Assembly: GCF_900108025.1 (NCBI RefSeq)
Contig: NZ_FNUS01000001.1
Coordinates: forward strand, 1 to 64,000
Direction of reading: 5' to 3'
Length of the DNA stretch: 64,000 nucleotides
Source of the DNA: Halpernia humi
Lineage (GTDB): Bacteria > Bacteroidota > Bacteroidia > Flavobacteriales > Weeksellaceae
In this document: positions 1,341-58,759 of the stretch, piece after piece
How the letters are laid out: the number at the start of each line of letters is the position of its first letter
How positions within the stretch are numbered: position 1 is the stretch's first letter
Translations under genes and position numbers: made by a program
Notes under the pieces: generated by a model
What the model was told of the DNA's origin: nothing
The model's input: only the letters and a program-made list of their open reading frames with translations
Databases searched by the model: none

Positions 1341-1694
1341 ATGAAACATCCAATGGAAAAGTTAAGATTCTCAACGAGAGCAATAATTTAGGATGTAACA
1401 TCTGACCAAAAAAAAAATAGAAATATCCAGATGAAACATCCTTTAGAAAATTACTATTCTCAACGAGAGCAATAATTTAGGATGTAACATCTGACCATTA
1501 AAAAAATAGAAATATCCAGATGAAACATCCTTTAAAAAATTACTATTCTCAACGAGAGCAATAATTTAGGATGTAACATCTGACCAAAAAAAAATAGAAA
1601 TATCCAGATGAAACATCCTTAAAAAATTACTATTCTCAACGAGAGCAATAATTTAGGATGTAACATCTGACCAAAAAAAAATAAAAATATCCAG
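1341..1694 (+). repeat. Four tandem 87-90 bp hairpin/mini-ORF units in the pyrH leader
   Basis: Units run 1341-1430, 1431-1519, 1520-1607 and 1608-1694 (90, 89, 88, 87 bp). Each starts ATGAAACATCC and ends with GACC, an A-run, and AAATATCCAG. The next ATG after unit 4 is the pyrH start codon, also ATGAAA. Within units 2-4 the sequence folds on paper into a long stem: CAGATG-AA-ACATCCT pairs with AGGATGT-AA-CATCTG, then AAAT/ATTT, TATT/AATA and CTC/GAG close an AACGA loop. Units 2 and 3 encode MKHPL(E/K)NYYSQREQ and stop. Unit 1 encodes a diverged 16-residue peptide. Unit 4 has lost one T and stops after MKHP. Structure and peptide function are inference; the repeat itself is directly visible. 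Confidence 0.9.
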
Positions 1695-27790: not shown

Positions 27791-27851
27791 TTTTTAGGAT
27801 GAAAAATTGCTCTGTATTTTGAATAAAAATTGTTTTTTATGAATATATTAT

Positions 27852-27936
27852 GAAATCGCCATGATTTGCAAGCGCAAACACCTATTAACATTGAGCGATT
27901 GCATATGACCTAAAAAAAAACAATAAATATCTACAG
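27852..27936 (+). promoter_or_regulatory. Leader element related to the pyrH repeat units
   Basis: A mini-ORF from ATG 27861 encodes MICKRKHLLTLSDCI and stops at 27906-27908. Its sequence can pair: TGCAA/TTGCA and CAA/TTG around an internal loop. It is followed by GACC, a run of nine A and AAATATCTACAG directly before the ATG at 27937. The block from CAT-TGACC to CAGATGAAA closely follows the 3' end of each pyrH unit. Homology over about 40 bases is visible; a shared regulatory role is inference. Confidence 0.55.
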
Positions 27937-28347
27937 ATGAAAAAAATAATTTTTTATTTATCATTTTTATTTCTTGGCTGTTTTGTAATTTCTTGCGACA
28001 GAACCGAACCAGCCATCGGAAAATGGGAAGATAATATTAAACTTTCTGATAAAACAGCAACTTTAAGTTCTGGTTCAAATTCTATTATAATTTCAACTCA
28101 ATCAACAAATTGGTGGTTAGACAGCATTTCTTTAAATGGAAAAATAATAGATTTGCAGAACATTGATCGATTTTCTAAAAACTTCTTGTTTTCGCACTCC
28201 GATTTTACAGTTGAACGTAAAGAAGATGGAAAAAAAATCATTATTTCTATGAATCAAAATACTGCAAATGTTGAGAGAATTTTGGTTGTAAGAGTGGAAC
28301 AAGGAGATTATTTTGATTCTGTAAAAGTAACGCAAGCAAAACAATAA
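27937..28347 (+). CDS. Small lipoprotein with BACON-like domain
   Basis: 136 residues; lipobox with cysteine at about 20 (FVISCDRTEP). The mature chain has the strand order of a BACON-type domain: SIIISTQSTNWWLDSI (about 48-63), then NVERILVVRVEQGDYFDSVKVTQAK at the end (about 111-135), where the closing VKVTQA matches the domain's usual end. BACON domains occur in Bacteroidota surface proteins, often linked to glycan or mucin binding. The leader contains the pyrH-like element; a terminator follows. The ligand is unknown. Confidence 0.65.
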   Translation: MKKIIFYLSFLFLGCFVISCDRTEPAIGKWEDNIKLSDKTATLSSGSNSIIISTQSTNWWLDSISLNGKIIDLQNIDRFSKNFLFSHSDFTVERKEDGKKIIISMNQNTANVERILVVRVEQGDYFDSVKVTQAKQ

Positions 28348-58065: not shown

Positions 58066-58662
58066 TTAATTTTTTGTTTCATCTGTTGTTGCCAAAGAAA
58101 TTACAGGTATTTGAAAATCTATAAGTAAACCCATTAATTTGTTGCGCTCTTTACTTAAAGACTTTGCGGCGTATTTCACATCGCCATAACTTCTTTTGAT
58201 GTACGAGAAAATAATAAAGGATTTTTTGGCGCCATTGGTCATTTTTTTAAATCTATAAATTCCGTATTCTGCGTAAGGATTTCCGTTTTTAGGGGTTTCT
58301 GTTAAAATTCCATCTACAATAAATTGCGTTCCATCTGGGCTTTCTGTAACTTGAACGTTAGAATATTTATCACTTTTTTCTCTGTTTTGAAAACTTTCTA
58401 CTTTTTGCCGCACGGCATCGTCTAAATCTATTTCTTTGTCAAAATAGGAAATATTTATAAGCTGTGTAAAGGTTTTAATTGTTTCATCTCGCGGTAAATA
58501 TTGCTGTAAATAAAGAGTTGCAGATTTCTGTTTGCTCCAATCTAATAAAAATTCGGTACCATCAATTTCTAAAGGACCAGGAATATTGAGATAATCTTTG
58601 GCATTTTGAGCATTAAAACCAAAACCTATAAAGCCTATAATTAGCAGTAAATATTTTTTCAT
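58066..58662 (-). CDS. Secreted protein, unknown function
   Basis: 198 residues; signal peptide to about 18 (GFNA-Q). The body has KDYLNIPGPLEIDGTEFLLDW near the start, an NISYFDKEIDLDDAVRQKVE region and a strand-rich IYRFKKMTNGAKKSFIIFSYIKRSYG section. No domain recognised. The 155-bp gap to ribD holds nothing apparent. Confidence 0.6.
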   Translation of the reverse strand: MKKYLLLIIGFIGFGFNAQNAKDYLNIPGPLEIDGTEFLLDWSKQKSATLYLQQYLPRDETIKTFTQLINISYFDKEIDLDDAVRQKVESFQNREKSDKYSNVQVTESPDGTQFIVDGILTETPKNGNPYAEYGIYRFKKMTNGAKKSFIIFSYIKRSYGDVKYAAKSLSKERNKLMGLLIDFQIPVISLATTDETKN

Positions 58663-58759
58663 AAAAATTCATTTATTGTTTTCAAAAGTTACTTGCAATC
58701 GCCAAATTTTTGAGGTTTTGTTTGTAAACTTGCCCATTGCATTTTATAGTAAACTGAAA

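Follow-up and report, generated by a model that had tools for sequence, protein, structure and literature searches.

A short repeat of Bacteroidota found between ATG and AAA at gene starts, with an internal hexamer complementary to its right end

The window analyzed here is a stretch of 64,000 nucleotides of Halpernia humi (contig NZ_FNUS01000001.1, positions 1 to 64,000). It contains a lipoprotein-like gene directly preceded by one copy of a dispersed repeat, with related copies at two other places.

27850..27852, + strand: ATG left of the repeat, the target half-site and presumably the original start codon, as judged from empty sites at four other loci
27853..27939, + strand: one repeat copy (AAATCGCC...CAGATG), inserted after the ATG at 27850-27852, with boundaries set from empty sites and variable left triplets
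27855..27859, + strand: 5' arm of the outer stem, ATCGC
27861..27908, + strand: mini-ORF of 15 codons, not conserved in sister copies according to the copy alignments
27865..27878, + strand: inner hairpin, TTTGC-AAGC-GCAAA
27895..27899, + strand: 3' arm of the outer stem, GCGAT
27902..27910, + strand: guide CATATG, followed by ACC
27911..27933, + strand: A-rich tract (TAAAAAAAAACAATAAATATCTA), read from the sequence
27934..27939, + strand: right site CAGATG, which includes the start codon of the gene and has one mismatch to the guide CATATG
27937..28347, + strand: lipoprotein-like gene of 136 aa, whose start codon is part of the right end of the repeat
1341..1694, + strand: four tandem units of a sister family before pyrH (guide CATCTG, site CAGATG, stem ACATCCT/AGGATGT)
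58663..58740, - strand: degenerate copy of the main family, directly before an ORF starting at 58662

From 27850 to 27939 the window copy runs in the order ATG AA ATCGC ... GCGAT TG CATATG ACC T A9 CAATAAATATCTA CAGATG. The first-pass annotation had described this leader sequence accurately apart from two details, a T that stands between GACC and the nine A, and CAAT, which precedes AAATATCTACAGATGAAA. It had also treated the mini-ORF (MICKRKHLLTLSDCI, 15 codons from 27861 with a TGA at 27906-27908) as a component of the leader, which the alignments contradict, many sister copies having a stop after MKSP or after 8-16 codons. Since the mini-ORF is not conserved, a leader-peptide mechanism is unsupported, and a leader-peptide attenuator was rejected on the differing length and sequence of the upstream ORF among copies. 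The predicted RNA fold of the window copy alone was only weakly better than shuffles (z -1.6). Exact patterns modeled on the annotated motif gave no useful match when searched within the window. The pyrH units (CATCTGACC...CAGATG) have the same 3' part as the window copy and a different stem; the two leaders do form a single class, as had been proposed, in which the stems differ and the 3' architecture is common.

A query of 161 bp from the window matched its own genome at 30 places, the highest identity to another copy being 92% (E = 2e-34), a result that bears out the earlier view that this is a true family and not a chance duplication. A consensus query raised the count for this genome to at least 44 copies, while the genus's other genome had only 3. 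The unit is roughly 90 bp long (85-95 bp). In the alignment of copies the left end, ATGAAATCGCCAT, and the right part, GCGATnnCATATGACC-A-rich-ATCTACAT, are fixed and the middle is variable; ATGAAA follows. The anatomy common to the copies is N'ATG, AA, stem, loop, stem', NN, guide CATNTG, ACC, A-rich tract and site CAN'ATG. An outer stem of at least 5 bp, beginning two bases after the left NNG, was present at 110 of 185 right ends, compared with 2-6 for controls that were shifted or reversed and 47 with arms exchanged between elements; the outer stem is real. A longer variant of about 140 bp, with AACAATTGAAAATTCATCGAT in its middle, was seen at G000:C4:208473-208696 and C2:907224-907369, once in tandem with a standard copy, and in Gelidibacter (L141:1180-1500) copies of the repeat are interrupted by another flavobacterial repeat, CTGTGCTGAGCGTAGTCGAAGTAT.

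The main sequence family was present in 178 of 320 genomes of the host's family. Named genomes that carry it belong to Chryseobacterium, Kaistella, Epilithonimonas, Halpernia and Cloacibacterium, and also to Confluentibacter, Gelidibacter, Lutibacter, Flavobacterium and Myroides. The bare architecture, searched as the pattern TTTCATNTGN{12,30}GGTCANATG, was found in 34 of 296 genomes sampled across Bacteroidota, with 8 to 30 copies in some other families (G511, G420, G515, G503, G457), while a reversed control pattern gave about ten matches in total. Examples fetched from this phylum-wide search have other stems (ATGCCC, ACATCCAT and GA/GA-step stems) in an unchanged layout. Plasmid and phage collections held no match to the repeat, and the Rfam covariance models gave no match at the gathering score and none that was meaningful at a relaxed threshold.

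For 26 of the 27 best copies in the genome of the window, the right boundary coincides exactly with the ATG of an ORF. A search of named Flavobacteriales genomes with an exact pattern gave 70 loci, and at 64 of these an ORF that begins with ATGAAA follows directly; contig edges, tandem units or short frames account for the rest. The first-pass annotation had named lack of enrichment before start codons, or lack of homologues, as grounds for refutation; the motif is strongly enriched there and its homologues are abundant. The genes behind the copies are unrelated, including acs-like, coaD-like, etfB-like, DnaJ-like, glycosyltransferase and lipoprotein genes (names read from the sequence). At acs, coaD, the DnaJ-like gene and etfB, empty sites were found in G001 and in other genera, in which the 5' flank runs directly into ATGAAA. 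Since these orthologues without the repeat have the 5' flank joined to ATGAAA, the copies are clean insertions and not leaders that evolved in place. The repeat splits a native ATGAAA after its ATG, with native sequence as its left flank and a new CAN'ATG brought in at its right end. The suggested family of leaders was thus correct as to the family and incomplete as to its nature, the copies being clean insertions at ATG^AAA before genes without a common function. At the DnaJ-like locus, L104 (G242) and L105 (G220) have worn repeats of other types at the start codon that holds a standard copy in G000, and the locus is empty in other genera, as would result from repeated insertion at one site or from an old copy with losses.

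The triplet to the left of the insertion varies (ATG, TTG, ACG, AAG, GTG) and the right end is constantly CAN'ATG, although the search patterns required ATGAAA on the right, and the constancy of that end is hence not independent. In most copies ATGAAA stands on both sides, which makes a duplication of AAA hard to discount; the left triplet is native and variable. The simplest reading would be a cut between G and AAA, with a native left triplet and an ATG on the right borne by the element.

Copies carry CATNTGAC after the stem and CAN'ATG at the right end, and the variable bases N and N' are complementary at 129 of 137 loci, whereas the maximum in 20,000 permutations was 85. A set of 110 distinct pattern matches, collected without requiring the guide and site to match, gave the same result: 95 were complementary, with shuffles averaging 33 and reaching at most 52. 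All four base versions occur among these 95 (A/T 16, C/G 42, G/C 18 and T/A 19). The family with the ATCGC stem alone has 82 A/T, six T/A and one C/G pairs versus four mismatches, and double changes of guide and site occur within it; because guide and site are co-inherited, independent switches number fewer than loci. These statistics show guide and right site to be reverse complements, the guide reading CATNTG. The window copy, with CATATG and CAGATG, is an exception.

Target choice can be read from the composition of the left flank, which is native DNA. Where the guide has A, the base before the left ATG was T at 71 of 87 loci, as against 33% at the starts of ATGAAA ORFs, and where it has C that base was A or G at 30 of 39 loci. 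The base before the left ATG therefore depends statistically on the guide. For guide A this supports a guide-dependent choice of target; for guide C, in which A is commoner at this position than the complementary G, pairing may explain the pattern only partly.

Amplification of a sister repeat is seen in the related genome G247. We recovered 26 distinct copies with a median identity of 90% over the last 48 nt, of which 11 do not precede an ORF of at least 40 codons. The left triplet is TTG in one copy, at the end of an etfA-like gene, and ACG or AAG in others, and the right end is CAGATG. With so many copies away from gene starts, the start-codon bias of the older copies looks like a survival filter, by which harmful or useless insertions would have been lost. 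Empty sites, tandem arrays and the amplification in G247 argue that the copies are mobile repeats first and leaders only secondarily, because the surviving copies sit at start codons. Two G247 loci, L304 and L307, hold a nested 50-bp tandem repeat (GGCAAATCCGAAGGATTCGCCGACACCATTAAAAAAATAAAAATGCAGGA) with a like layout, the site GGC^AA and GCC after the stem, and loops of the ATG-type repeat hold related sequence too. The few GGC^AA copies suggest that the layout may not be tied to ATG.

Movement, insertion site and complementarity are shown by the comparisons above; for the strand, the chemistry and the enzyme we infer the following. The repeat is probably a short non-autonomous mobile DNA element that inserts by guide-directed, single-strand transposition of the IS200/IS605 kind. 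It would move as a folded single strand, with a trans-acting enzyme recognizing its one hairpin. The guide would pair in turn with the left or target site (N'ATG) and with the right site (CAN'ATG), placing the cuts after ATG, and the target would be chosen by guide pairing much as in IS608, with insertion 3' of the target. Insertions at start codons would be tolerated, since the element restores an ATGAAA start at its right end and brings an A-rich upstream region with it; most others would be lost, and some of the inserted copies may then have been retained as working leaders.

An inserted repeat places a hairpin containing the old ATG before the host gene, whose new, A-rich start region comes from the element. 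Across ten species of Chryseobacterium, an operonic copy has 10 variable positions among the 88 of the element, compared with 73 of 153 surrounding third codon positions (p = 4e-9). This copy is under strong purifying selection and is maintained, and such selection indicates that copies can become functional leaders. It also supplies the last codons and the stop of the upstream gene. At L138, L151, L154 and seven more loci in Chryseobacterium, the repeat lengthens the C-terminus of an upstream transporter-like ORF (...GFK-MKSPSFGKRKRL) and provides its stop codon.

The selection on this one operonic locus, together with a guide-site pairing that spans the start codon and the near restriction of old copies to start codons, would also be expected of a cis-regulatory RNA leader, in which CATNTG pairs either with the upstream ATG, within a hairpin, or with the start codon of the gene itself, gates translation and has spread by its usefulness. 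We consider this unlikely as the primary explanation, since the target genes have no common theme, the peptide of the upstream ORF is not conserved, many G247 copies are not before genes and yet have an unchanged sequence, and the native base at the left of the insertion varies with the guide. A role as an RNA leader can still be a secondary one.

No enzyme gene was found in or beside any copy, and there is no ORF of that kind within the repeat. A search for long, enzyme-carrying copies in about 1 Mb of loci produced only composites of about 125-200 bp, some with nested repeats. The Y1 transposase genes of G000, G001 and G247 were checked for the repeat at their ends, and none had it; those of G000 and G247 are flanked by other palindromes. 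There are several such genes in G000 and in G247 and only one, which is divergent, in the copy-poor G001. This distribution, and a repeat that is small, hairpin-forming, non-coding and multicopy, would fit ordinary REP sequences mobilized by REP-associated tyrosine transposases, but that account appears quite improbable given a unit of 85-95 bp as opposed to 20-40 bp, no GTAG-type tag beside a compact palindrome, and no examined Y1 gene flanked by the repeat. A classical miniature inverted-repeat transposon (MITE) with a GAAA or ATGAAA target duplication would account for ATGAAA on both sides and for clean empty sites and is very improbable, there being no terminal inverted repeats (the ends are AAATCGCC... 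and ...CANATG) and the left triplet varying while the right one stays CAN'ATG, which indicates that the right triplet comes from the element and not from a target duplication, an argument weakened by search patterns that demanded ATGAAA on the right.

A possible enzyme for the guide-directed insertion favored here is TnpA_Y1 subclass 1.2, described as an orphan group of Cyanobacteria and Bacteroidetes with the signature Y---Q--HH and without typical IS200 ends (PMC6006769). All seven aligned Y1 proteins of G000 and G247 have this signature. Relatives were found in 219 of 312 genomes of the family, in which their association with the presence of the repeat is confounded by genus, and G001, with its few copies, has no subclass 1.2 gene. 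Because other palindromes flank the genes and some copy-bearing genomes have no close relative, the subclass is a candidate mobilizer and a lead only. Five subclass 1.2-like Y1 genes (L126, L128, L332, L333, L335) are flanked by palindromic repeats of their own (e.g. CCGTAGGCGAGCGAAGCGTTGCCTACGG), in contrast to the subclass as reported without typical terminal structures. In L336 (G247:C133:20592-20912) the match to the Y1 transposase domain falls within an open frame of 1245 aa that is also DNA methyltransferase-like.

More tentatively, the repeats may represent a class of DNA-guided repeats spread throughout the Bacteroidota, with a guide complementary to N'ATG, moved in trans (TnpA_Y1 subclass 1.2 being the candidate) and serving as portable 5' leaders. 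The repeat explains near-identical leaders before unrelated Bacteroidota genes, and as a natural minimal system for guide-directed insertion it has four guide versions, each with a matching site, that make target choice testable by a one-base change. A mobile element that owes its survival to restoring the start codon it splits would be a route to new translation leaders. Should subclass 1.2 TnpA prove to move the repeat, an orphan protein group would gain a function. Searches of a literature collection with few subscription papers, on flavobacterial repeats, MITEs, structured leaders and REP sequences, gave no description of it, and within that collection and Rfam it appears to be undescribed.

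The repeat resembles MITEs in being small, non-coding, dispersed and non-autonomous. To our knowledge, no RU/ERIC or BOX/RUP repeat has been described as inserting inside a start context with a covarying guide. Enterobacterial RU/ERIC-type repeats (PMC2759123) and pneumococcal BOX/RUP (PMC3049150) are likewise interspersed mobile repeats of roughly 100 bp near genes. REP sequences with TnpA_REP/RAYT (PMC2817692, PMC6006769, PMC8266576) are also short, dispersed, hairpin-forming and thought to be mobilized in trans, in genomes that hold Y1 proteins, but the repeat has no GTAG tag, is longer, is not associated with a RAYT gene and inserts at start codons. The TnpA_Y1 subclass 1.2 genes have no physical link to the repeat. 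In IS608, recognition by pairing of a guide with the cleavage site and single-strand transposition are established (PMC5934647). With this IS200/IS605 member the repeat shares a hairpin, tandem-compatible ends and the lack of terminal inverted repeats, and it appears also to share directional insertion 3' of a short target that is kept at the left flank and an internal guide complementary to the cleavage sites. It differs from IS200/IS605 elements in containing no tnpA or Y1 HUH gene, the Y1 genes of G000 and G247 also being without its ends; in having a single outer hairpin rather than one subterminal hairpin per end; in a guide that lies 3' of the hairpin and would pair directly as an extension of the stem; and in its overall length of about 90 bp and its target, ATG. 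Judged by these features, the repeat fails the defining characters of REP sequences, MITEs and full IS200/IS605 elements, and of the three it appears to work most like IS200/IS605.
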